A stretch of 64,000 nucleotides of DNA from Saccharicrinis carchari. Lineage in GTDB: Bacteria > Bacteroidota > Bacteroidia > Bacteroidales > Marinilabiliaceae. The translations under genes and the position numbers were made by a program. The notes under the pieces were generated by a model. That model was given only the letters and a program-made list of their open reading frames with translations, did no database searches and was not told the origin of the DNA. Of this stretch, positions 5,368 through 64,000 are shown piece after piece. The DNA is taken from assembly GCF_900182605.1 (NCBI RefSeq), contig NZ_FXTB01000002.1, positions 62,001 to 126,000 on the forward strand, given 5' to 3'. Position 1 is the first letter of the stretch; each line of letters begins with the position of its first letter.

Positions 5368-6039
5368 ATGAAAAAGAACATACTGATCTTAGCCCCACAC
5401 CCCGATGATGAAGTGTTGGGCTGTGGGGGATTCATTAAAAAGAAATCGCAACAAGGGCATCGTGTTTACGTGCTGGTGGCTACACGCGGATCGGCAAAAC
5501 GTTATAGTGAAGAACGTGTGGCCAATGTGCGCAGGGAAGCCCTGGATGCACATGCACTGCTGGGTGTAAGCGAAACCGTTTTTTTGGATTTTCCGGCTCC
5601 CGATCTCGATCTGGTGTCAAAGGCCGATATGTCGGGCGAGATAGCCCATGTGTTGAAGAAGTTTGAGATAGAAGAATTATTTTTACCCCACCGGGGCGAC
5701 ATACACCACGACCATCAGGCTGTTTTTAACGCCGGTCTGGTTGCTGCACGGCCTGTGCACGGCAACACAGTGAAGCGTATTTATGCCTACGAAACGCTCT
5801 CCGAAACTGAATGGGCAGCTCCCTTTGCGGCTGATGTTTTTATACCTAATTATTTTGAGGAGGTTAGCGATACTTTTGCAGCTAAATTAGAAGCTATGAA
5901 GTTGTTTAAAAGCCAGCTTCGCGAATTTCCAAACTCCCGCTCGCTTCAAGCCATAGAGGCCTTGGCCAAATTTCGAGGGTGCACGGTTGGCTTCGATCGT
6001 GCCGAAGCTTTTATGGTTATTCGCGTAATAGAAAGTTGA
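5368..6039 (+). CDS. PIG-L family deacetylase (LmbE-like)
   Basis: A 223-residue zinc-dependent de-N-acetylase of the PIG-L/LmbE family. The metal-binding motif APHPDDEVLGCGG is at residues 9-21 and the second metal histidine lies in HRGDIHHDHQAV (about 109-120). Family members remove the N-acetyl group of GlcNAc-type sugars or related conjugates, leaving a free amine. Set between two FemAB/GNAT acyltransferases and an ACP/KAS III/SDR set, it could unmask an amine that is then re-acylated with another acyl chain. That pathway role is inference; the family call is firm. Confidence 0.9.
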   Translation: MKKNILILAPHPDDEVLGCGGFIKKKSQQGHRVYVLVATRGSAKRYSEERVANVRREALDAHALLGVSETVFLDFPAPDLDLVSKADMSGEIAHVLKKFEIEELFLPHRGDIHHDHQAVFNAGLVAARPVHGNTVKRIYAYETLSETEWAAPFAADVFIPNYFEEVSDTFAAKLEAMKLFKSQLREFPNSRSLQAIEALAKFRGCTVGFDRAEAFMVIRVIES

Positions 6040-50638: not shown

Positions 50639-51697
50639 TTATCCCGTAATATAACTGGCCAGCCAGTCGCCCACTTGCGAAGTCTTATATGGCTTTTCTT
50701 TGCTGATGTCTTCGGTAACAATACCTTGTTCCAGCGATTTATTGACGGCTTGACGAATTAGCTCGGCTTCCTCTAATAAATCGAAGGACTCCAGCAGCAT
50801 GGCGGCCGAAAGGACAGTAGCTACCGGGTTGGCAATATTTTTGCCTGCTGCTTGCGGGTACGAACCGTGGATAGGCTCAAAAACGGAGGTGTGCACACCA
50901 ACCGATGCAGATGGCAACAAACCTAATGATCCGGTTATTACCGAAGCCTCGTCGCTAAGGATATCTCCAAACATGTTTTCGGTTACCATTACGTCGAACT
51001 TTTTAGGCCATTGTATTAATTGCATGGCAGCATTGTCAACGAACATGTAATCTACTTCAATATCTTTGTAGTCCGGCTCCATGGCTTGCGCAGTTTCTCT
51101 CCACAAACGCGAGGTGGCCAGTACGTTGGCTTTATCAACAATAGTTAGCCTTTTGTTTCTTTTGGCGGCATACGCAAAGGCGAGCTTTAGGATTCGCTCA
51201 ATCTCGTCGGTGGTATAGGTACAGGTGTCAAAAGCTTTTTTTAAATCCTCAGAACGTCCTTTTTCGCCAAAGTAAATACCGCCCGTTAGCTCACGAACAA
51301 CCAGTAAGTCGGCTCCTTCCACGATGTCCTTACGCAAGGGGCTTTTATCCAACAGCGATGGAAATGTAGCAACGGGACGTATGTTGGCATAGAGCCCTAG
51401 TTTTTTGCGCATGGCCAACAAACCCTGTTCAGGTCGTACCTTGGCTTTGGGATCGTTATCAAATTTGGGATCGCCAATGGCTCCAAACAACACGGCATCG
51501 GAGTCCATGCAAATCTGATGCGTTGCCTCGGGGTATGGATCGCCTACCTGGTCGATCGCCGTGGCTCCTACCAATGCCGGTGTATAGCTAATTTCGTGGT
51601 TAAATTTGGTAGCTACGGCATTGATAACTTTTTGTGCCTGTGCTACAATTTCGGGGCCGATACCGTCACCGGCCAATACTGCAATGTTTAGTTTCAT
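50639..51697 (-). CDS. leuB: 3-isopropylmalate dehydrogenase
   Basis: A 352-residue NAD-dependent dehydrogenase of leucine synthesis that oxidises and decarboxylates 3-isopropylmalate. [16 protein letters not shown] at the start, [15 protein letters not shown], and [21 protein letters not shown] with [14 protein letters not shown] are typical. The start at 51697 is chosen over an in-frame ATG seven codons upstream because homology begins with MKLNIAVL. It also serves citramalate-derived 2-oxobutyrate synthesis in some organisms. It is the last gene of the branched-chain operon, 410 bases after its neighbour. Confidence 0.93.
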
Positions 51698-52107
51698 TAT
51701 GTTTGCTTTTAGTATCAAGATACAAGTATCAGGATATGCGATGATTTACATCTTAGATATATCTGATTAATTTTTCTCATTAATCAGCGTTTATTAGCCA
51801 ACTATTGGCTTTCTATTGGTCATTCTGCACTACCTATTTTAAGTCAGCAGCAATTGCACTATGCTAATCTGCTGTTCAATATATTTTTGCAATGCAGGCA
51901 AAGTATTTATTTCGTTTTTAGGTATAATCTTTTAATTAATTATTAGCCTGTTGCGACCTTTGCTAAGGTGATTGCGAGTATATTTTAAATACCGGTTCAA
52001 GTACCGCTTTACTTTTCATGGCAACCTCAATAGCCCTAATTATCAATTAATTATCTATCATAAATTTTGATATGATACGTTGTACTCATTTGCTTGGTAC
52101 TTATTTC
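51698..52107. other. Long spacer inside the branched-chain operon
   Basis: A 410-base gap between leuB and the leuA/cimA-like gene. It has no gene. A word like tagtatcaagatacaagtatc (imperfect, near 51709-51731) recurs near 56142 in the leuA-leuC gap. It may hold an internal promoter, but no clean TAnnTTTG element was found. Confidence 0.4.
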
Positions 52108-53664
52108 TCACTCCTCCACTTTCTCTTTCCAGGCTAATTTACGACCTACAGCGCCCTCTTCTATAACGTTAAGCACTTTTATGGTAGCTTCAATGGCCGA
52201 TTCAGTTTGATCGGCAGAAAGACCACGCGAAATGATTTCAGCACCTTTATAATCCCAGGTAATCACGGTTTCCACCAGGGCATCTGTTTTTCCACCCGGA
52301 GGTATGGTCACCCAATAATCCACCAAAACCGGATGCACTTTATTTAGTTTGGTATAAATTCGCCATAGGGCTCGCATAAAGGCATCGTACTGTCCGTCGC
52401 CTACAGCGGTTTCGTCGTATCTTTTTCCATTGATTTCAATGCTAATAGAAGCCAGCGGCCTAAGATCGTGTGCCAGCGAAAGGTTATAGTTACGTATTTT
52501 AATAGTATTGCGAACTGTAGAACTTTTTAAAACGTCGGAAATTATAAACGGAAGATCTTCAATCGTTACGGTTTCCTTTTTATCGCCCAATTCAATTACT
52601 CTTTGGGTAACTTTTTTCATATCCTCCGCATTGAGTTCAATGCCAAGCTCTTCCAGGTTCTTTTTAATGTTGGCCTTTCCCGAAGTCTTACCAAGGGCAT
52701 ATCTGCGGTTGCGCCCAAAACGTTCGGGCATCAGGTTATTAAAGTACAGGTTATCCTTGCTGTCGCCATCGGCATGTACCCCGCTGCATTGAGTAAATAC
52801 ATTGTAACCGGTTATGGGTTTGTTTTCGGGTATCCGCAATCCGGAGAATTGCTCTACCATTTTGCTTACCTGTGTTATCTTCGACTCGTTAATCTGATTC
52901 GGGAGTTTGAGATGATCGTTAAGTACGCCTATGACGCTGGCAAGTGGCACATTACCGGCTCTTTCGCCCAGCCCGTTTACGGTGGTATGGATGCCTTTGA
53001 TACCGGTTTTTAAAGCCGAAAAAACATTGGCGGCTGCCATATCGTAGTCGTTATGGGCATGAAAATCGAAATGGGTATCCGGAAATCGCTGTACCATATC
53101 AGTACAAAAATTAAATGTTTGATCAGGATTAAGTATCCCCAGGGTGTCTGGGAGCATAATCCTTTTAACATTCATTTTTTTCATTTCGCCAATCACGTAA
53201 TACACGTAATCGGGCGATGTTAGCATGCCGTTGCTCCAATCCTCGAGATAAATATTTACGCTAATATTCATCTCTTCGGCTTTACGCACTACCTCCCTCA
53301 CATCACTCATATGCTGTTCCGGGGTTTTTCGCAGTTGGCTTTTTACATGCTTTAGCGACCCTTTGGTAAGGAGATTGATAACCCTTGCGCCTGCATCGTG
53401 CACCCAATTAAGCGATACCTCGCCGTCTATAAAACCCAGTACCTCTATTTTATGCAGGCAGTTTCGTTTTTTTGCCCATTGGGTGATACGCTTCACAGCA
53501 GAAAACTCACCTTCAGAAACCCGTGCCGAAGCTACCTCTAATCGATCTACCTTTATTTCTTCTATTAAAAGTCCGGCAATGGCCAGTTTTTCACTTTCGT
53601 TAAACGATACCCCGGTGGTTTGTTCACCATCGCGCAGGGTGGTATCCATTATTTCAATCTTCAT
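52108..53664 (-). CDS. LeuA/CimA-like DRE-TIM synthase, second paralogue
   Basis: A 518-residue enzyme of the isopropylmalate/citramalate synthase family. The catalytic [10 protein letters not shown] (residues 7-16), FDFHAHNDYDMAAAN (metal His pair) and the C-terminal regulatory domain are visible. It differs clearly from the other paralogue (leuA, 56222-57715) in the same operon. One of the two could be a citramalate synthase feeding 2-oxobutyrate for isoleucine through leuC, leuD and leuB; the other then makes 2-isopropylmalate. This gene is the better citramalate candidate only by elimination. It could also be a redundant LeuA with other feedback control. Confidence 0.8.
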   Translation of the reverse strand: MKIEIMDTTLRDGEQTTGVSFNESEKLAIAGLLIEEIKVDRLEVASARVSEGEFSAVKRITQWAKKRNCLHKIEVLGFIDGEVSLNWVHDAGARVINLLTKGSLKHVKSQLRKTPEQHMSDVREVVRKAEEMNISVNIYLEDWSNGMLTSPDYVYYVIGEMKKMNVKRIMLPDTLGILNPDQTFNFCTDMVQRFPDTHFDFHAHNDYDMAAANVFSALKTGIKGIHTTVNGLGERAGNVPLASVIGVLNDHLKLPNQINESKITQVSKMVEQFSGLRIPENKPITGYNVFTQCSGVHADGDSKDNLYFNNLMPERFGRNRRYALGKTSGKANIKKNLEELGIELNAEDMKKVTQRVIELGDKKETVTIEDLPFIISDVLKSSTVRNTIKIRNYNLSLAHDLRPLASISIEINGKRYDETAVGDGQYDAFMRALWRIYTKLNKVHPVLVDYWVTIPPGGKTDALVETVITWDYKGAEIISRGLSADQTESAIEATIKVLNVIEEGAVGRKLAWKEKVEE

Positions 53665-54108
53665 GGTAATTTATTATTAGAATGATGAATAATGCTAAGC
53701 CAATAAGGGTTCGGCACAAATTAAGTTGATATCGATATATAATTGCATATCCATTATTAATGGAAATTTTACCCAATAGCAGGTGGCTTACTCTGTTGTT
53801 GAAGCATTGCACGAGGGCAATCGCTACTCTGCCGCGGCACTAATGCAAGCGGCCGAACATTGTATCCATATCATTTGTATTCCCGGGGGCAGCCCATTAA
53901 ACGCCTCTTTTTGTACCAACTGTTACGATAACGGCTACTTTTTACTATGTGAATTAGGTCCCTCAACCCTGTATTTAAAGCTGGGGTTGAGGGACTTGTA
54001 GTTCGGTTTGCATCCCGAATCGGATTCGGTTGTACTGCTTTCGTCGGTCGTATTAAGAGCGTTTATTACAGGCAGATATTATAGTGTAAATATCTTACTA
54101 TATACCTC
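53665..54108. other. Intercistronic spacer with strong hairpin
   Basis: This 444-base gap between leuD and the leuA/cimA-like gene includes a perfect 12-bp inverted repeat gtccctcaaccc/gggttgagggac (arms 53958-53969 and 53984-53995, 14-base loop). No U run follows on the minus strand. A plus-strand frame (53783-54001) overlaps the hairpin and has no recognisable content. No gene assigned. Confidence 0.5.
53958..53995. repeat. Perfect 12-bp inverted repeat
   Basis: Arms gtccctcaaccc and gggttgagggac are perfect complements around a 14-base loop. Lying between two operon genes it may stop exonucleases or be left by a small mobile repeat. Confidence 0.75.
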
Positions 54109-54693
54109 TTATGCCCTGCTTAACTCGTAATTTGCAATCTCATCTTTTATATTTAGTAGATAGTCAATATCGTCGAAGCCATTGATCAGGCAATTTTTCT
54201 TATATCCGTTAATCTCAAAAGACTCGGTATTTCCGTTTGCTTTATTGGTGATGGTTTGATCTACCAGGTTAACAATTACTTTGTTGTCGGCATCGGCATC
54301 GAACAATTCTTGCAAAAATTTTTCGCTTACAACAACTGGCAATACGCCATTGTTTAAGGAGTTATTTTTAAATATATCGGCAAAAAAGCTCGATACCACT
54401 ACTTTAAAACCATAGCCACGCACGGCCCAGGCGGCATGTTCGCGGCTCGAACCCGAACCGAAATTTTTACCGGCAACCAAAACCTCCCCTTTATATTGGG
54501 GTTTGTTTAAAACAAAATCTGCTTTAGGCGAACCATCTTTATTGTATCGCCAGTCGGCAAACAGGTTATCGCCAAAACCCTCTTTGGTGGTCGACTTTAA
54601 AAAGCGCGCAGGAATAATCTGGTCGGTGTCAACATTTTCTATGGCAAGCGGAACATAAGTTGATTCTATGGTAGTGAATTTATCTATTGGCAT
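54109..54693 (-). CDS. leuD: 3-isopropylmalate dehydratase, small subunit
   Basis: A 194-residue subunit of isopropylmalate isomerase. VDTDQIIPARFLK at the start and the substrate-binding NFGSGSSREHAAWAVRGYGF are typical. Works with LeuC, 18 bases upstream, to convert 2- to 3-isopropylmalate (and citramalate to 3-methylmalate in organisms using that route). Length standard. Part of the minus-strand ilv-leu operon. Confidence 0.95.
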   Translation of the reverse strand: MPIDKFTTIESTYVPLAIENVDTDQIIPARFLKSTTKEGFGDNLFADWRYNKDGSPKADFVLNKPQYKGEVLVAGKNFGSGSSREHAAWAVRGYGFKVVVSSFFADIFKNNSLNNGVLPVVVSEKFLQELFDADADNKVIVNLVDQTITNKANGNTESFEINGYKKNCLINGFDDIDYLLNIKDEIANYELSRA

Positions 54694-54711: not shown

Positions 54712-56109
54712 TTATAAAGTACGAGGGTCAGTTATAACACCACTAGTTGCGCAGGCTGCTGCAGTTAATGGGCTGGCCAGTAATGTGCGTGCACCGGGCC
54801 CTTGTCTGCCTTCGAAATTACGGTTACTGGTAGCCACGGCGTACTTACCGGGAGGTACCTTATCATCGTTCATAGCCAGGCAGGCCGAACATCCGGGCTG
54901 GCGCAATTCAAAACCAGCGTCTTCCAATACATCTTTTATCCCTTCTTCAACTGCTTGCTTTTCAACTTGTTGACTTCCGGGTACAATCCAAGCGGTAAGT
55001 CCTTCTGCTTTTTTCTTACCTTTTACGGCATTGGCAAACACACGTAAATCCTCAATTCGGCCGTTGGTACAACTACCCACAAATATCCAGTCTACTTTTT
55101 TACCCAGCATTTCTTCGCCCGGTTCGTAGCCCATGTACTCTAAAGATTTGAGGTAGCTTTTTTGCGAAGATTCTTCGATGGAATCGAGCGTAGGTATGCT
55201 TTGCGTAATGCCAACGCCCATACCTGGATTGGTTCCGTAGGTAATCATTGGTTCAATGTCGGCCGCGTCAAAGTAATATTCTTTGTCGTAAACTGCATCT
55301 TTGTCGCTTGCCAGGGCTTTCCATTTTTGAACGGCCACATCCCAGTCTGCTCCTTTAGGTGCATACTCTCTGTCTTTAACATAGGCGAATGTTTTTTCGT
55401 CGGGGGCAATAAGTCCACCACGGGCTCCCATTTCTATACTCATGTTGCACACTGTCATACGGGCCTCCATGCTCAGGTCGCGGATGGCCGAGCCGGCAAA
55501 CTCCACAAAATAACCGGTACCACCACTCGCTGTTAGTTGTGCGATAACATATAGTACCAAATCCTTTGCTGTTACACCCTTATCAAGCTTACCATCAATA
55601 TTTATTTTCATGGTTTTTGGACGAGGCTGCAATATGCATTGCGTGGCCAGCACCATCTCCACTTCGGATGTACCTATACCAAAGGCAATACTACCGAAAG
55701 CACCATGCGTAGAAGTGTGGCTATCGCCGCAAACAATGGTCATGCCCGGTTGTGTGATCCCATTTTCAGGACCCACTACGTGTACTATACCATTTTTTGG
55801 ATGCAACAAACCAAACAACTTAATATTATTTTCTTCGCAGTTTTTGGTTAAGGTATCTACCTGAAAACGCGATATTTTATCGGCAATGGGTAAATGCTGA
55901 TTGATAGTGGGGATATTATGATCGGGGGTGGCAAAGGTTTTTTCCGGACGGAATACCTTTATGCCGCGTTCTTTTAGACCGGCAAATGCCTGTGGACTGG
56001 TTACCTCGTGAATCAAGTGTCTGTCTATATACAATACGGAAGGGCCATCCTTGATGGTCTTCACTTCGTGCATATCCCAAATTTTGTCGAAAAGTGTTTT
56101 ACTAGCCAA
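54712..56109 (-). CDS. leuC: 3-isopropylmalate dehydratase, large subunit
   Basis: A 465-residue aconitase-family enzyme with a [4Fe-4S] cluster. [34 protein letters not shown] and [14 protein letters not shown] supply the three cluster cysteines in family positions. It forms the isomerase with LeuD, which follows 18 bases later. The 112-base gap to leuA upstream contains the short repeated word also found in the leuB spacer. Length standard. Confidence 0.95.
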
Positions 56110-56221: not shown

Positions 56222-57715
56222 TTAAACCACTTTAGAAAGGGCATCTAAATAAGCCCATACCGAAGCAGTGAGTATGTCAACGTTGGCTCCAAAGCCATGA
56301 ACCGTTCGGCCGTTGTCGGCGAGTTGTACATGTACTTTACCTATTTCGGACGAACCTCGTGTAACAGCTTGTACCAAATATTCTTCTAACACCACATTTA
56401 CGGGTATCATTTTTTTGATAGCGTTAAAAGCCGCATCAACCGGCCCGTTACCTGTGGCAGTTTCCGTCATTATTTTACCATTGTAATTAATGGTAACGGT
56501 AGCTGTTGGAATACATGATTTTCCACAAATTACCTGAAACTCGTCCAGCTTAAGCAGCCGTTCTTCCTTTTTTTCGTGTCCTACCAACACGTCTAAATCC
56601 TCATCCGAAATATCTTTTTTGGCATCGGCCAATACCAGGAAGTTTTTATATACATGATCCAATTTTTCGGGAGAGAGTTTATAGCCTAACACATCGAGGC
56701 GATGCTTAAGGGCGGCTCTTCCGCTTCTTGCGGTCAGTACAATACTCGATTCCTTCACGCCCACATCTGCGGGGTCAATAATCTCGTAGGTTTCGCGATT
56801 TTTCAGTACTCCGTCCTGGTGTATGCCCGACGAGTGTGCAAAAGCATTTCGACCCACAATGGCTTTATTGGCCTGTACCGGCATTCGCATCAAAGTAGAT
56901 ACCAATTTGCTGGTTTTAATAATTTGTTTGGCATCAATACCTGTTGTATAGTTGAGGTCTTTATGCGATTTCATCGCCATTACCACCTCTTCGAGTGCCG
57001 TATTTCCGGCACGCTCACCCAAACCATTTAATGTTACCTCTACTTGTCGTGCTCCATTTACTACTCCGGCCAGGGTATTTGCTGTGGCCATTCCTAAATC
57101 GTTATGGCAGTGGGTAGAGATAATGGCTTTGTCGATATTGGGCACATTGTTTTTTAAATAAGCAATTTTAGCACCATACTCCAATGGCAAACAATAACCC
57201 GTAGTATCAGGGATATTAACAACTGTTGCACCGGCACCAATTACTGCCTCAATAACCCGCGCCAGGTATTCGTTGTCGCTGCGTCCGGCATCTTCGGCAT
57301 AGAACTCTACGTCGTCTACAAATTTACGTGCATACGTTACCGCTGCAATGGCGCGTTCAATAATTTCGTCGGGATTGGAGTTTAATTTTTGGTAGATGTG
57401 ATAAGGTGAAGTGCCTATGCCCGTGTGTATTCTCCCTCGTTTGGCAAACTTAAGCGCATCAGCGGCTACTTCAATATCTTTTTTAACGGCTCTTGTAAGT
57501 GCACAGATAACAGGGTTGCTAACTGCTTTAGAAACCTCTACCACCGAATTAAAATCACCCGGACTTGAAATAGGGAACCCGGCCTCAATAATATCTACAC
57601 CCAATTTTTCGAGTTGCTTGGCCACTTCAATTTTTTCGATAGTGTTTAATTGGCAACCCGGGACCTGTTCTCCATCCCGTAACGTGGTGTCGAAAATATA
57701 AACTCTATTGCTCAT
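56222..57715 (-). CDS. leuA: 2-isopropylmalate synthase
   Basis: A 497-residue synthase joining acetyl-CoA and 2-oxoisovalerate. [16 protein letters not shown] (residues 8-23), the metal ligands in [36 protein letters not shown] and the C-terminal leucine-binding regulatory domain (about residues 370-497, beginning after [15 protein letters not shown]) are present. This is the standard LeuA of the operon, between ilvH and leuC, and the most likely isopropylmalate former. A second paralogue lies at 52108. Confidence 0.92.
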
Positions 57716-57773: not shown

Positions 57774-58328
57774 TTAATATGTTTCTATGCCTTTAATTTT
57801 ATTGTCAATTCTCAGCTTCTTCAAATATTTTTCTAAAAGTTCTTCGCGAACTTTGGTAATGGCCACCCTGCCTGAACGAATAAACTGCAGTACGCCATAT
57901 TTATCTAACTTTACAAAAAGCTCTTGTGTTTCGGATTTGTGTCCTGTTTTTTGTATGACTGTATAATCGGGTGTTACCTCCATAATACGAGCACCGTAGC
58001 TGCGTACGAGCTGTTCAATTTCGTTGCCCGATAGCAAGGCCTCGGTGGGTACTTTGTAGAGTGCCAGCTCCTGATGAATTATTTCGTCGGTTGTGAACAC
58101 GAATACTTTGAGCACATCGATTTTTTTCTCCAACTGACCTCTCAGTTTTTCTATCTGCTCTCTGGTGGAATATACAACTATGGTAAATTTATGTATCCCT
58201 TCCAAAGCCGATTCCGAAGTATTTAAGCTTTCAATATTGATGCTTCGTCGGGTAAAAGCAGTTGTTATTTGATTGAGCAAACCTACGTGGTTCTCGGAAA
58301 ATATGGTTAAGGTGAATTCTTGCTGCAT
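57774..58328 (-). CDS. ilvH: Acetolactate synthase, small (regulatory) subunit
   Basis: A 184-residue subunit that gives the acetolactate synthase its valine sensitivity. The N-terminal ACT domain (FTLTIFSENHVGLLNQITTAFTRRSINIESL split by blocks, about residues 4-80) is followed by a second domain ending YLKKLRIDNKIKGIE. It follows ilvB by 31 bases. No ilvC gene is found between this gene and leuA, though many operons have it there. Confidence 0.92.
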   Translation of the reverse strand: MQQEFTLTIFSENHVGLLNQITTAFTRRSINIESLNTSESALEGIHKFTIVVYSTREQIEKLRGQLEKKIDVLKVFVFTTDEIIHQELALYKVPTEALLSGNEIEQLVRSYGARIMEVTPDYTVIQKTGHKSETQELFVKLDKYGVLQFIRSGRVAITKVREELLEKYLKKLRIDNKIKGIETY

Positions 58329-58359: not shown

Positions 58360-60093
58360 TTACTCCAAACGTATATCGGAAACGGAACTTCCTGCTGGTA
58401 CCATTGGAAAAACGTTGCCTTCTTTTTCAACTTTTACTTCGAGCAAGAAAGGCCCATCATGATTAGCCATACGCTGTATAGCTTCATCCAGCTTGTTGCG
58501 CGATTCCACCAGAACACTTTCGATACCGTAGCCTTTGGTTATCATCTGAAAATCAGGATTAACAAGTTCTGTTGATGCATATCTGCCATCAAAAAACAAC
58601 TCTTGCCATTGGCGAACCATACCTAAAAAGTTATTGTTGAGGATGATAATTTTAACTTTGGCTTTGGTTTGGAAAATAGTACCCAGTTCCTGTATAGTCA
58701 TCTGAAAGCCACCATCGCCAATAAAAACACATACCTCACGGTCGGGTGCCCCCAGCTTTGCCCCCAGGGCAGCCGGAAGTCCAAAGCCCATAGTGCCAAG
58801 ACCACCTGAAGTTACGTTGCTACGTGTTTGTTTAAAGTTAAAATAACGTGAAGCCATCATTTGATGTTGTCCTACATCGGTTACTAAAACGGCATCGTCG
58901 TTGAATGCCTTGGATACTTTATGAATTACCTCTCCCATTGTCATTCCTTTTTGTGTGGGGAACACCTCGTTGGTAATCACTTTTTCCGTTTCAATTTTAT
59001 CACAAGCCCTAAACTCAGATAGCCATTCGGGGTGCTTGTTTGGCTTAAGCTCTGCGGTTAACGCTGGCAGGGTGTCTTTTACGCTCCCCAGCACGGCCAC
59101 GTCGGCTTTGATGTTTTTATTTACTTCGGCCGGATCAATTTCTAAGTGAATTACCTTGGCTTGGGTGGCATAACTGCTCACATCGCCTGTAACCCTATCG
59201 TCGAATCTCATGCCAATAGCAATCAGTACATCACATTCGTTGGTTTTAAGGTTGGGCCCGTAATTACCGTGCATACCAAGCATGCCAACATTCAGTTCGT
59301 AATCCGTAGGCATGGCCGAAAGCCCCAGAAGAGTCCAGGCGGCGGGGATGCCTGTTTTGTCTAAAAAAGCTTTCAGTTCCTCTTCGGCATGTCCCAAAAT
59401 TACGCCCTGGCCAACCAAAGCCATTGGTTTTTTTGCTGCATTGATTAAGTCGGCTGCATCGTGTATCGATTCTATTTTTGTAACAGGTACCGGGGTGTAA
59501 CTTCTTATGTAGTTAATTTTTTTATAATCAAATGCTACCTTCCCAAATTGTGCATCTTTGGTAATGTCGATTACCACAGGCCCGGGACGTCCGGTGGTTG
59601 CAATGTAAAAGGCTTTGGCAATAACCTCCGGTATTTCTTCTGCATTTTTTACCAAATGGTTCCATTTTGTAATGGGTTGGGTAATGCCTATCACGTCAAT
59701 TTCCTGAAAGGCATCGGAGCCCAGAAGTGGCGAGGCCACCTGCCCTGTGATAACCACCAGGGGTGTGGAATCGAGCATGGCATCGGCTATTCCGGTAACC
59801 AGATTGGTGGCGCCGGGACCCGATGTAGCGAAGGCTACTCCCACTTTACCGTTTACCCTTGCATATCCTTGGGCGGCATGAACGGCTCCCTGCTCATGGC
59901 GGGTGAGCACATGGTGCAATTTATCCTGATAATCGTATAGGGCGTCATAAACAGGCATGATTGCTCCGCCCGGATACCCGAATATTAAATCTACACCCTC
60001 ACATAGCAATGAGCGAAGCACGGCTTCAGAACCGGAAAGTATCTCCTTTTCATTTTTTTTCTTCTCCATGAGTAATTGGCTTCGTGGTTCCAT
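58360..60093 (-). CDS. ilvB: Acetolactate synthase, large (catalytic) subunit
   Basis: A 577-residue thiamine-diphosphate enzyme making acetolactate and acetohydroxybutyrate. The catalytic Glu sits in RHEQGAVHAAQGYARV, the FAD-binding area in the middle is present, and the thiamine motif GDGGFQMTIQELGTIFQ is near residue 455-471, followed by NNNFLGMVRQWQ. The start at 60093 is used; a downstream ATG eight codons on is also possible. It is 38 bases after ilvD. Confidence 0.95.
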   Translation of the reverse strand: MEPRSQLLMEKKKNEKEILSGSEAVLRSLLCEGVDLIFGYPGGAIMPVYDALYDYQDKLHHVLTRHEQGAVHAAQGYARVNGKVGVAFATSGPGATNLVTGIADAMLDSTPLVVITGQVASPLLGSDAFQEIDVIGITQPITKWNHLVKNAEEIPEVIAKAFYIATTGRPGPVVIDITKDAQFGKVAFDYKKINYIRSYTPVPVTKIESIHDAADLINAAKKPMALVGQGVILGHAEEELKAFLDKTGIPAAWTLLGLSAMPTDYELNVGMLGMHGNYGPNLKTNECDVLIAIGMRFDDRVTGDVSSYATQAKVIHLEIDPAEVNKNIKADVAVLGSVKDTLPALTAELKPNKHPEWLSEFRACDKIETEKVITNEVFPTQKGMTMGEVIHKVSKAFNDDAVLVTDVGQHQMMASRYFNFKQTRSNVTSGGLGTMGFGLPAALGAKLGAPDREVCVFIGDGGFQMTIQELGTIFQTKAKVKIIILNNNFLGMVRQWQELFFDGRYASTELVNPDFQMITKGYGIESVLVESRNKLDEAIQRMANHDGPFLLEVKVEKEGNVFPMVPAGSSVSDIRLE

Positions 60094-60131: not shown

Positions 60132-61958
60132 TTAAATCATCCTTACAGCTCCTTTATCGGCGGAGCTTACTAAGCTGGCATAGGCCCTAAGTGCACCGGT
60201 TACACGGCGGGGGCGGGGATCGGGTACATAGGCTTTATTTCCTTTGGCTTCTTCGTTTTTTCTCCTTTGCGCCAGTATCTCGTCGGAAACTAATACGTTG
60301 ATAGATCGCTCGGGAATATTTATTTCAATTTCATCGCCGGTATGCACCAGGCCTATGGCACCACCTGCTGCCGCTTCGGGCGACACATGGCCAATAGACA
60401 GGCCAGAGGTACCTCCGGAGAATCTGCCATCGGTTATCAAGGCGCACTTTTCGCCCAGATGACGCGATTTAATATAAGATGTAGGATAGAGCATCTCCTG
60501 CATGCCGGGGCCACCTCTGGGGCCTTCGTACACAATCACCACCACATCTCCGGCCTTAACCTCACCCGATAAAATTCCGTCGCAGGCATCATCTTGCGAT
60601 TGGTAAACCCTTGCTTTTCCTTTAAACTTAAAAATTGACTCGTCCACACCTGCCGTTTTAACCACACATCCATCAGTGGCAATATTACCCTTTAGAACAG
60701 CTAAACCGCCATCTTTGTTGTAAGCATTTTTTACTGATCGGATACAGCCCTTTTCTCTGTCGAGATCGAGCTTGGCATAATGGGTCTTTTGCGAGCCCAT
60801 GGTCAGGTTGCGAATACCCGCCGGGGCGCTTGTATAAATACTTTTTACTTTGTCGGAGATCTGAGGATTGGTAACATCATATTGTGCCATAGCCTGTTTA
60901 AGGGTAAGCCCGTCAGCTCTGCACACACTGCTGTCAATCAATCCACCTCTGTCGAGTTCGGCCAAAATACCCAATATGCCACCGGCCCGGTTCACGTCCT
61001 CGATATGATAGTCGGAGTTTGGCGCTACCTTTGCGAGTACAGGGGTGTTTCGCGATATTTGGTCGATATCATCCATGGTAAAATTCAGGTTGGCCTCGTG
61101 TGCAATAGCCAGGATGTGCAGTACGGTATTGGTAGATCCGCCCATGGCCACATCTAATGTCATGGCATTTTTAAAGGCACTGAGCGATCCAATATTGCGT
61201 GGTAATATCGAATCGTCGCCATCTCTATAGTATTTATAGGTATTATCAACAATTATTTTAGCAGCCTGTTCAAACAAGTGCTTTCTGTTTATGTGAGTGG
61301 CCACAATGGTGCCATTGCCCGGTAAAGCCAAACCAATGGCTTCGTTGAGGCAGTTCATTGAATTTGCTGTAAACATTCCGGAGCAGGAACCGCAAGTGGG
61401 ACAGGCGTTTTCTTCTACAGCCAACACTTCGGCATCTGAAACGGTATCGTCGGCTGCCATTACCATCGCATCTACCAGATCCAGCGCTTTGTCACCAACC
61501 TTTCCGGCTTCCATTGGTCCGCCCGAAACAAAAATTGTTGGAATATTCAAGCGCATGGCTGCCATAAGCATTCCCGGCGTTATTTTGTCGCAGTTGCTTA
61601 TACAAATCATGGCATCGGCCATATGTGCGTTGCACATGTATTCTACACTATCGGCAATTACATCGCGCGAGGGCAAGGAATACAACATGCCATCATGTCC
61701 CATAGCGATACCGTCGTCAACAGCAATGGTATTAAACTCAGCGGCAAAACAACCTTGTGCCTCTATCATTCGCTTCACTTCCTGTCCAATCTGGTGCAGA
61801 TGTACGTGTCCGGGAACAAATTGCGTGAATGAGTTAACGATGGCAATCATTGGCTTGCCAAACTGCTCCTCCTTAACACCGTTTGCGCGCCATAAGCTAC
61901 GCGCCCCGGCCATACGCCGTCCTTCGGTTGTTGTTGCACTTCTTAGTTTATTTTTCAT
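60132..61958 (-). CDS. ilvD: Dihydroxyacid dehydratase
   Basis: A 608-residue Fe-S dehydratase that gives 2-oxoisovalerate and 3-methyl-2-oxopentanoate. [29 protein letters not shown] (cluster cysteines), [14 protein letters not shown] and [14 protein letters not shown] are all present. It is the first enzyme gene of the operon, starting 15 bases after the U run of a terminator hairpin. Its expression therefore depends on readthrough of the attenuator in front of it. Length standard. Confidence 0.96.
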
Positions 61959-61973
61959 TGTAATGTAACATCT

Positions 61974-62010
61974 AAAAAAAAAGCCCTCCTCATACTATTG
62001 AGAAAGGCTT
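61974..62010 (-). terminator. Attenuator terminator in front of ilvD
   Basis: On the minus strand the RNA folds a 12-bp stem with G-U pairs (left arm aagcctttctca, right arm tgaggagggctt, six-base loop) followed directly by nine U. This is a strong intrinsic terminator placed between the leader reading frame and ilvD, hence an attenuator rather than an operon end. Confidence 0.88.
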
Positions 62011-62099
62011 AAATAAATTCTTGTAATAATTATTTTTTACACACCATCCTCAGTTCTGCTTGGTAATGACCAAGAGAATAACGTTAAGGACGATGAGGG
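61999..62099 (-). promoter_or_regulatory. Alternative pairings of the ilv leader RNA
   Basis: Segment 2 (tgaggatgg, 62052-62044, containing the leader stop codon) can pair with segment 3 (cctttctca, 62007-61999, left arm of the terminator) over eight of nine positions, which would block the terminator. Segment 1 (ccctcatcgtcc, 62099-62088, inside the leader frame) can pair with segment 2 instead over shorter stretches. This is the 1:2, 2:3, 3:4 logic of classical attenuators. Pairings were found by hand, not by folding software. Confidence 0.6.
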
Positions 62100-62121
62100 A
62101 AAATATATTTTTCATTTTCAT
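62050..62121 (-). CDS. Branched-chain leader peptide of the ilv-leu operon
   Basis: A 23-codon frame with ATG start at 62121 (second ATG two codons on) and TGA stop. After MKMKN come runs of Ile, Leu and Val; four Ile, four Leu and three Val make 11 of 23 residues, ending ITKQN. It is too short for routine gene finders. Its place between a promoter and a terminator hairpin shows its role: ribosome stalling at Ile/Leu/Val codons when charged tRNAs are scarce would favour the antiterminator and let transcription enter ilvD. The peptide itself probably has no function. Confidence 0.85.
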   Translation of the reverse strand: MKMKNIFSLIVLNVILLVITKQN

Positions 62122-62143: not shown

Positions 62144-62173
62144 CAAATGTAGAGATTTTTTTTAATCTCCAAA
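62144..62173 (-). promoter_or_regulatory. Promoter of the ilv-leu operon
   Basis: On the minus strand, TACATTTG (62151-62144) matches the -7 consensus TAnnTTTG and TTTG (62173-62170) is the -33 candidate, 18 bases upstream. The spacer is an inverted repeat (gagatt/aatctc, 62152-62157 and 62164-62169) and could bind a regulator. Transcription would start near 62137, about 16 bases before the leader frame. Confidence 0.65.
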
Positions 62174-62404: not shown

Positions 62405-64000
62405 CTATAATCGTACTCCCATAAATAGTACATCATCTATCTGATCCAAATCTCCTTTCCAATTGTTAAAGTAATCACCGATCAACTCGCCTTGCTTGTC
62501 CATTGGTTTTTCGTGTATTTTTTGGAGCAATTTAGTCACACCCACCTTCATCATTTTTTTACCTTTGGGACCACCGAACTGATCTGTATAGCCATCGGTA
62601 AAGAGGTATACAGAATCGCCTTTTGAGCAGTCGTATTCGTAGTTTACAAATTTGGTTTTTTCGGCTACTTTGTCGTCTCCAATGCTTCGGCGTGTACCGT
62701 TATAGGTAGTCAGGGTTTTGTTGATATATAAAAAAACCGGGCGTTTGGCAGAGGCCAATCTAACCTTTTTACTTTTTAAATTTATCTCAATAACTGAGAT
62801 GTCCATTCCATCGGGTGCATTATTCTCATTATCTTGTTGTAGCAAAGTGTTAATGTTGCTATCTAATTTTTCCAATATGTCGGCCGGCGATGCTATATCT
62901 CCTCTTTTGTTGATGTCGTTTAGCAGGGTAGTTCCAATCATTGACATAAATGCCCCTGGTACGCCATGTCCGGTACAATCGGCACAGCACAAAATAAACT
63001 TATCTTTATGCTTAGTGTACCAATAAAAATCGCCACTTACAATATCTCTTGGTGCAAAAAATATAAAGGATTCGTTAAAAGTATCTTTTAAAGCACTAAT
63101 CGGAGGCAGTATAGAACTTTGAATACGCTTGGCATAGTTTATACTTGCGGTAATGTCAATATTTTTGCGTTCAATTTCATTTTTTTGTTTACGCAAAATA
63201 ACGGTTTGTAAATCCACCTCTCTTTCCAGTTCTTCTTTTTGCAACCTCAATTGGCGCTCTCTGAGTTTAACTATCCAATAGAACAGCAGTCCGATAAAGG
63301 TAATGAGCAGAAGGTAAAACCAATATTTTTTCCATACGGGACTGGCTATTTCAATGGGAACGGTTATGGGAGTTATACTTGCTATGCCGTCGCCATTAAA
63401 AGCCCTGATCTTTAATTTGTACTCACCATCGGGTAAAAATTCATATTCCCTGAATTTGGTGTTTCCTATGTCTACCCAATCGGATTGATCTTCCCCTTTG
63501 GTTTCAAGCTTGTACTGGTAGGTTACGGCATTGGGATCTTTAAAGCTGATGCCGGTAAAATCGAATCGAAGCTTGGAGTATTTTTTGTTATACGGGTAGG
63601 GTAGTTTTATGGCTTGATCTAAGGGGTAAGGTTCGCCGGAAATTTTTATGCTGTTCAGATTAATTTTCGGGGGTGTCAGGTTTATTTTATCCCGATCAGG
63701 AATGTATTTGATTATTCCATTGCTTGAAGCAAACCAAATATTGTTTTCCTGATCTTCCCACAGTTTATAGAAGTCGCCACCCATTTGGTCATTGAAATCA
63801 TATTTTTTTATTTGATTGTTTTTTAAGTTAATCGTACTTATACCGGGCCAATGTGCCACCCATAGTTTTTGGTTTTTATCGCAAACTATATCGTAGCAGT
63901 AGTTTTTTGTGAGTCCATCGTTTATGTCGATAATCTGTATGATAGAATCCTGGTTATATTTCATCACGCCTTTACCCATGGTAGCGAGCCAAAAGTTACC
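62405..64000 (-). CDS. Sensor protein with Y_Y_Y and SpoIIE-type phosphatase domains, 5' end outside window
   Basis: The frame stays open to base 64000, so the N-terminus is missing. Visible parts in order: beta-propeller repeats of the two-component regulator type (LWVAHWPGISTINL, IWFASSNGIIKYIP), a Y_Y_Y-like beta domain (about 110 residues), one membrane helix (YWFYLLLITFIGLLFYWIV), a coiled coil, and a C-terminal PP2C/SpoIIE phosphatase domain with FFAPRDIVSGDFYWY and CCADCTGHGVPGAFMSMIG (metal Asp). It senses something in the periplasm and dephosphorylates a cytoplasmic serine/threonine partner. No partner is nearby. Confidence 0.9.
   Translation of the reverse strand, partial: GNFWLATMGKGVMKYNQDSIIQIIDINDGLTKNYCYDIVCDKNQKLWVAHWPGISTINLKNNQIKKYDFNDQMGGDFYKLWEDQENNIWFASSNGIIKYIPDRDKINLTPPKINLNSIKISGEPYPLDQAIKLPYPYNKKYSKLRFDFTGISFKDPNAVTYQYKLETKGEDQSDWVDIGNTKFREYEFLPDGEYKLKIRAFNGDGIASITPITVPIEIASPVWKKYWFYLLLITFIGLLFYWIVKLRERQLRLQKEELEREVDLQTVILRKQKNEIERKNIDITASINYAKRIQSSILPPISALKDTFNESFIFFAPRDIVSGDFYWYTKHKDKFILCCADCTGHGVPGAFMSMIGTTLLNDINKRGDIASPADILEKLDSNINTLLQQDNENNAPDGMDISVIEINLKSKKVRLASAKRPVFLYINKTLTTYNGTRRSIGDDKVAEKTKFVNYEYDCSKGDSVYLFTDGYTDQFGGPKGKKMMKVGVTKLLQKIHEKPMDKQGELIGDYFNNWKGDLDQIDDVLFMGVRL

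Follow-up and report, generated by a model that had tools for sequence, protein, structure and literature searches.

Does the short open reading frame in front of ilvD in Saccharicrinis carchari, with the hairpin that follows it, sense ribosomes on behalf of the genes downstream? The original prediction, made from the letters of one 64,000-nucleotide stretch of contig NZ_FXTB01000002.1 (hereafter the window), held that it is a translation-coupled attenuator for branched-chain amino acids (BCAA). Conservation, covariation and spacing lend that central claim good support, and we conclude that a ribosome-mediated BCAA leader-peptide attenuator very probably stands before ilvD, because its elements are in place and kept across relatives, the terminator stem (regions 3:4) covaries, loop and strand agree in the antiterminator (regions 2:3) and the spacing is compatible with a ribosome footprint. 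Its transcription start, stalling, termination and response to amino acids are predicted. Features and positions are collected in Table 1.

Table 1. Elements of the ilvD leader and the genes that follow, in window coordinates.
Feature	Position	Strand	Details
Promoter-like TTTG-N18-TACATTTG	62144..62173	minus	sequence read
Leader peptide ORF	62050..62121	minus	ATG 62121 to TGA 62050; 23 codons; peptide MKMKNIFSLIVLNVILLVITKQN
Region 1, within leader codons	62085..62095	minus	MFE partner of region 2 when the ribosome is absent
Region 2, antiterminator 5' strand TGAGGATGG	62044..62052	minus	includes leader stop codon
Region 3, CCTTTCTCA	61999..62007	minus	terminator 5' arm and region 2 partner
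Intrinsic terminator, regions 3:4	61974..62010	minus	12-bp stem 62010-61981 plus U-run; folding, covariation
ilvD, dihydroxy-acid dehydratase, first structural gene	60132..61958	minus	NCBIfam NF009103 1052.7 bits, TIGR00110 782.4 bits
ilvB, acetolactate synthase large subunit	58360..60093	minus	TIGR00118 711.6 bits
ilvN, acetolactate synthase small subunit	57774..58328	minus	TIGR00119 99.9 bits
leuA, 2-isopropylmalate synthase	56222..57715	minus	TIGR00973 694.7 bits
leuC	54712..56109	minus	TIGR00170 663.3 bits
leuD	54109..54693	minus	TIGR00171 194 bits
Citramalate/isopropylmalate-synthase-like gene	52108..53664	minus	best NCBIfam NF042433 635.6 bits, under cut-off 950
leuB	50639..51718	minus	TIGR00169 457.1 bits

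The leader frame, read from the minus strand, encodes a strongly hydrophobic peptide with Ile, Leu or Val at 11 of its 23 codons, exactly as had been proposed. Because relatives align only from its second ATG (62115), translation may instead begin there and yield 21 codons. No Shine-Dalgarno sequence is evident before the leader; starts that lack one are ordinary in Bacteroidota. Behind the leader lies a terminator of 12 pairs (including five G-C and two G-U) with a loop of six. The nine U residues of the prediction are also present, with the refinement that the first two T lie within the stem and seven follow it, the last at 61974 and 15 nt from the ilvD ATG at 61958. The terminator stretch 62014-61974 folds at -16.7 kcal/mol (z -5.0) and the whole 148 nt leader at -40.5 kcal/mol (z -4.64), values equalled by none of 200 shuffles in either case. 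The whole-leader MFE fold adds a hairpin that the prediction had missed, pairing CATCGTCCTTA (62095-62085) with TGAGGATGGTG (62052-62042). This 1:2 duplex reaches -15.4 kcal/mol in the window (equalled by 4 of 100 shuffles), and 11 of 64 loci have a 1:2 pairing that at most 5 of 100 shuffles match; the register of the window is not kept in the family alignment, where 54% of its cells are paired.

Of 71 genomes from the same family, 68 yielded ilvD, and for comparison we took upstream DNA from 68 loci in 67 genomes, one genome contributing two loci and G033, with only a fragment, being left out. The terminator stem covaries across this family: over 37 non-redundant sequences it is 93.4% paired, 6 of its 12 pairs change on both sides (reached by 9 of 500 shuffles), and double-changed cells number 40 against a shuffled mean of 13.8 (0 of 500 shuffles). 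Further pair types in these 37 sequences do not rise above shuffles, 110 of 500 reaching the same number.

The antiterminator proposed by hand in the original prediction, region 2 with region 3, is present with one T-T mismatch, and comparison across genera supports it. The region 2 core, (G)TGAG, is near-invariant in the family, and the 2:3 alignment columns are 81.1% paired against at most 58.3% in slid controls; covariation in these columns of the family alignment is not above shuffles, because region 2 hardly varies. Scored by a script that takes the best of several candidate region-2 motifs, and so somewhat favours the native strand over shuffles, the 2:3 duplex native to each locus averages -17.3 kcal/mol over 64 loci versus -10.0 kcal/mol for shuffled region 2, and in 47 of the 64 at most 5 of 100 shuffles are as good. 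The window itself has a 2:3 duplex of -10.8, matched by 9 of 100 shuffles and weaker than its 3:4 pairing (-16.2).

Region 3 strands and region 2 strands were also swapped between loci, looking at the bases mostly unconstrained by the terminator stem, that is, the terminator loop and the strand just upstream of the core. In this test, devised post hoc on sequences already seen and not blind, the 2:3 helix can be lengthened outward, mainly into the terminator loop, by an average of 5.00 pairs for native partners versus 3.89 for swapped ones among 19 genera, related and hence not fully independent, with one locus each (0 of 5,000 permutations as high). The outcome holds over 63 loci (permutation p 0.0000; L148 was left out, being without the anchor motif), over 36 non-redundant loci (p 0.0002), over 48 distinct strand pairs (p = 0.0002) and with random genus representatives (p at most 0.01 in 200 of 200 draws, the largest 0.007). 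Such loop-to-strand agreement supports 2:3 as the predicted antiterminator. The extension amounts to 1 pair in the window and 1-3 pairs in its own genus, and reaches GCAGAAGT with ACTTCTGC in L105, a locus whose antiterminator duplex (-25.6) is stronger than its terminator (-20.9).

The RNA was also folded in stalled and free states. If an E. coli-like ribosome is taken to cover 12 nt beyond the first base of its A-site codon, modelled stalls at codons 7-20 leave region 2 free, with P(2:3) of 0.87-0.97 in nascent RNA without region 4. At codons 21-24 P(2:3) is 0.12 or less, a ribosome at the stop covering region 2; P(2:3) is 0.26 at codon 6, the first Ile, and 0 at codons 1-5. A leader free of ribosomes has P(1:2) of 0.97. 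Ten of the 11 Ile/Leu/Val codons are positioned in the model to free region 2, Ile6 only partly, and with a stall at Ile19, the last sensor codon, the free RNA begins two bases ahead of region 2. In 60 of 64 family loci at least 13 nt separate region 2 from the last BCAA codon of the run; the separation is shorter in L087, L127, L148 and L149. In full-length window RNA at equilibrium P(2:3) is 0 in every ribosome position and 3:4 always wins; antitermination must therefore be kinetic, decided during transcription.

In the mechanism that we propose, the element would attenuate transcription through a ribosome that responds to the charging of Ile, Leu and Val tRNAs, and would thereby control ilvDBN-leuACD. 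When all three amino acids are plentiful, the ribosome would reach the leader stop and cover region 2, leaving region 3 to pair with region 4 as the terminator and ending transcription before ilvD. Shortage of any one of them would stall the ribosome on an Ile, Leu or Val codon among 9-19; region 2, left free, would then pair with region 3 ahead of region 4 synthesis, letting the polymerase continue into ilvD. A leader without a ribosome would form 1:2 and terminate by default.

The equilibrium fold, which disfavours 2:3 in the window, could also suit a leader that acts through translational coupling, re-initiation or Rho, with the hairpin secondary, and leader genes near structural genes are proposed in one paper to raise translation by re-initiation, with a peak also in Bacteroidetes (PMC4833913). 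With 91 nt between the leader stop and the ilvD start, however, the locus falls outside that paper's peak at 11-14 bp, a strong intrinsic terminator stands between stop and start, and the loop-to-strand agreement speaks for 2:3. We consider this account very unlikely.

The ribosome-mediated attenuator also makes sense of what is kept before ilvD in relatives. We scanned for ORFs of 12-40 codons that have 8 or more I/L/V in 12 and are followed, no more than 110 nt downstream, by a terminator. This detector finds leader plus terminator in 61 of the 68 family loci, or 60 of 67 once the window is set aside, against 0 of 680 shuffles. Its seven misses comprise three that pass a looser look (L088, L115, L127), two with a leader and a poor U-run (L137, L150) and two of the 68 with neither a recognisable leader nor a terminator (L146, L147). 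Bacteroides and Phocaeicola loci also carry an equivalent in front of ilvD. Among 80 loci on named contigs, the best 80 of a longer list, some truncated a short way upstream, with at least three (L003, L042, L044) seemingly from the same genomes as family loci, the pair is found in 36, against 0 of 800 shuffles. All 36 fall among the 57 loci labelled Bacteroidota by title, with 0 among the other 23; by eye, misses including L015, L025, L051 and L059 have cut or short versions of the leader, L015 being the only one of the Prevotella-labelled misses to show one.

These counts tell against an ordinary terminator of the upstream gene, which ends on the same strand at 62405, combined with a chance hydrophobic ORF and an ilvD promoter downstream of the hairpin. 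By chance the window does contain short ILV-rich ORFs (20 on one strand and 12 on the other, counting the leader), yet a chance pair would not be kept before ilvD as this one is, only 15 nt separate the U-run from ilvD, and a promoter-like TANNTTTG lies within the 110 nt upstream of the leader core in 60 of the 63 family loci with sufficient upstream sequence, versus 134 of 1,260 shuffles. We regard this explanation as improbable in the extreme. The promoter-like element of the window resembles the Bacteroidota-type pattern; a genome-wide count of that pattern barely exceeds its control and was dropped as evidence. Run on both strands of the window, the leader-plus-terminator detector returns two matches, the ilvD leader at -16.2 and a weak one at 5783-5890 (+) (-8.3 kcal/mol, 8 I/L/V in 12) that is probably chance.

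Among relatives the peptide differs in both length and sequence, L203 and L211 having long Ile runs, for instance, whereas its ILV richness and the RNA pairing partners stay. The leader stop also moves. Of 64 loci, 42 have it before the region 2 core and 12 at the TGA of that core; in the other 10 (L102, L105, L108, L112, L116, L118, L119, L120, L121, L123) the frame crosses region 2 and stops 13 nt beyond the core. Such a variable stop is consistent with selection on the stall position, not on the peptide. A functional small membrane peptide with an incidental terminator would fit the hydrophobicity of the leader, and has next to no probability given a peptide and a stop that change while codon richness and pairing are retained. 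A test of leader spacing modulo 3 (43 of 52 in one class) was muddled by the choice of motif and dropped. Codon choice in the 64 family leaders, which are related and so not independent counts, is CTC for 50% of Leu, GTC for 40% of Val and ATT for 90% of Ile, against 12%, 2% and 48% for the same codons in nine window genes. The bias may stem from pairing of region 1 (TTCTC with GAGAA) or from the sensing of tRNAs that carry the anticodons GAG and GAC; Leu-GAG and Val-GAC tRNAs were each found once among the scanned tRNA loci.

No Rfam family, T-box and described aptamer families included, reaches its gathering score in the window, and no Rfam leader family does so in 20 related loci, where the only two matches are to rRNA, both in L201. 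Matches at relaxed thresholds are of unrelated kinds, all sub-threshold and judged to be chance (best L10_leader, 27.7 versus 44); Phe_leader RF01859 scores 16.9 bits versus 55. A metabolite- or protein-binding riboswitch or a T-box in place of a ribosome sensor could explain a leader this structured, and we give it a negligible chance in view of these scores and of a structure accounted for by segments 1-4 plus the codon run. Leaders of the kind that we favour, ribosome-sensing and BCAA-rich, have probably been overlooked by routine RNA annotation, given that the 20 related loci gave no match to any Rfam leader family.

Downstream, ilvD-ilvB-ilvN-leuA-leuC-leuD form a closely spaced six-gene unit with intergenic gaps of 18-112 nt, and the six make the amino acids that the leader would sense. 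The prediction had spoken of a whole ilv-leu operon. That description holds for ilvDBN-leuACD and goes too far for the remainder, since the citramalate-synthase-like gene and leuB follow only after gaps of about 444 and 389 nt, so that their membership of the same transcript is uncertain, and ilvC is on another contig. Between leuD and the citramalate-synthase-like gene (gap 53660-54112) there is a strong palindrome, CCCTCAACCC ... GGGTTGAGGG, without a U-run. Upstream of ilvC and of the two Aminotran_4 genes in the same genome no attenuator was seen by eye.

How far such leaders spread was gauged with a covariance model built from the 37 family sequences, which at E 0.001 matched 57 of 296 genomes of the phylum, the window's own included. 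We examined the 30 loci with the strongest matches, one of them the window; by Pfam the next gene in the other 29 is ilvD (10), an ilvE-type aminotransferase (8), ilvN (2), leuA (2), trpE (3) or another gene (4), placing BCAA or trp genes downstream in 25 of the 29. A looser script (6 I/L/V in 12, run without a shuffle control) finds at least one leader with terminator in 22 of 22 BCAA loci, and two or three serial modules in 5 of 8 ilvE loci and 1 of 2 ilvN loci. Serial leader-plus-terminator modules occur in L213 (G327:C29), L206, L214, L223, L225 and L212; L213 carries three, of which the second and third encode almost the same peptide (MKTNSNIIIISIIIRSFE and MKTNMNIIIISIIIRSFE), and a second module is also visible by eye in L211 and L203. 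In L219 (G353:C89) a BCAA-type leader with terminator precedes a short ORF and a Fic/DOC gene, and is perhaps an orphaned attenuator.

Within the genome of the window we examined seven of the model's further matches (L230-L236, best E 0.005), and of these one has a leader: L234 (G000:C5:217205-217288 +), where a Trp-rich leader, MTAITNKIAMSNTWWWHWLFLNSER, and a terminator stand before trpE. That locus coincides with the genome's one weak match to RF01692 (Bacteroid-trp), at 33.8 bits and below 49. A small ILV-rich ORF at L235 was rejected, since it lies within the tail of the upstream gene in another frame and the model match there overlaps the next open frame. We tentatively suggest, at rather less than an even chance, a phylum-wide family of related attenuators, in many of which the core reads GTGAG / CTCAC. 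The family would have spread to ilvD, ilvE, ilvN, leuA and trpE by copying or re-tuning, with two or three members in series before ilvE in some lineages. If true, this would be an undescribed RNA regulon over much of BCAA and Trp synthesis, and comparative evidence of transcription-translation coupling in a phylum that largely avoids Shine-Dalgarno initiation.

Leader-peptide attenuation requires a ribosome closely behind the polymerase. A conserved, covarying BCAA attenuator would itself be comparative evidence for such coupling in Bacteroidota, a phylum absent from the list of phyla that a 2026 paper treats as 'runaway', or uncoupled (PMC13323073). The equivalents before ilvD in Bacteroides and Phocaeicola make this an easily tested locus in tractable relatives.

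The classical ribosome-mediated attenuators are those of E. coli ilvGMEDA, leuABCD and trpEDCBA. Like the E. coli ilv, leu and trp attenuators, the ilvD leader has a peptide rich in the regulating amino acids, exclusive 2:3 and 3:4 pairings, an intrinsic terminator and a first gene from the same pathway. Unlike them, it belongs to a different phylum, heads an operon that begins with ilvD, scores below threshold for every Rfam leader family, has no evident Shine-Dalgarno sequence and places its stop inside region 2 (as in 12 of 64 loci, the window included). Vitreschak et al. (2004) reportedly predicted attenuators for branched-chain operons, some cases lying in Bacteroidetes/Chlorobi, and Lopatovskaya et al. 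(2010) are also said to have predicted attenuators.

Our search of open-licence PMC papers found none on this ilvD leader. According to a paper on attenuator motifs, Rfam at that time had them for His, Leu, Thr and Trp only, and a gamma-proteobacterial origin is possible (PMC3766115). The Bacteroid-trp motif RF01692 is, from the parts of its source that we draw on, a cis-regulatory RNA of Bacteroidetes whose name points to trp genes (PMC2864571); the ilvD leader differs in giving no match to that model, even at a relaxed threshold. Two reports from the same phylum propose the same mechanism. A 2021 transcriptome of F. psychrophilum presents clues that leader peptides attenuate amino-acid operons, which are targets of the same class (PMC9723704), and leader-like sORFs are described in sections of a study of B. 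thetaiotaomicron (PMC7366714); in what we saw of their main text neither names the ilvD leader or gives covariation or a cross-family survey of such leaders. The original prediction had called the arrangement unusual for its lineage, a view contradicted by its presence in most family loci, in 36 of the 57 Bacteroidota-labelled loci and among model matches elsewhere in the phylum, and by the clues in the F. psychrophilum transcriptome. The ilvD leader is most likely a standard mechanism that is not exceptional for the phylum.
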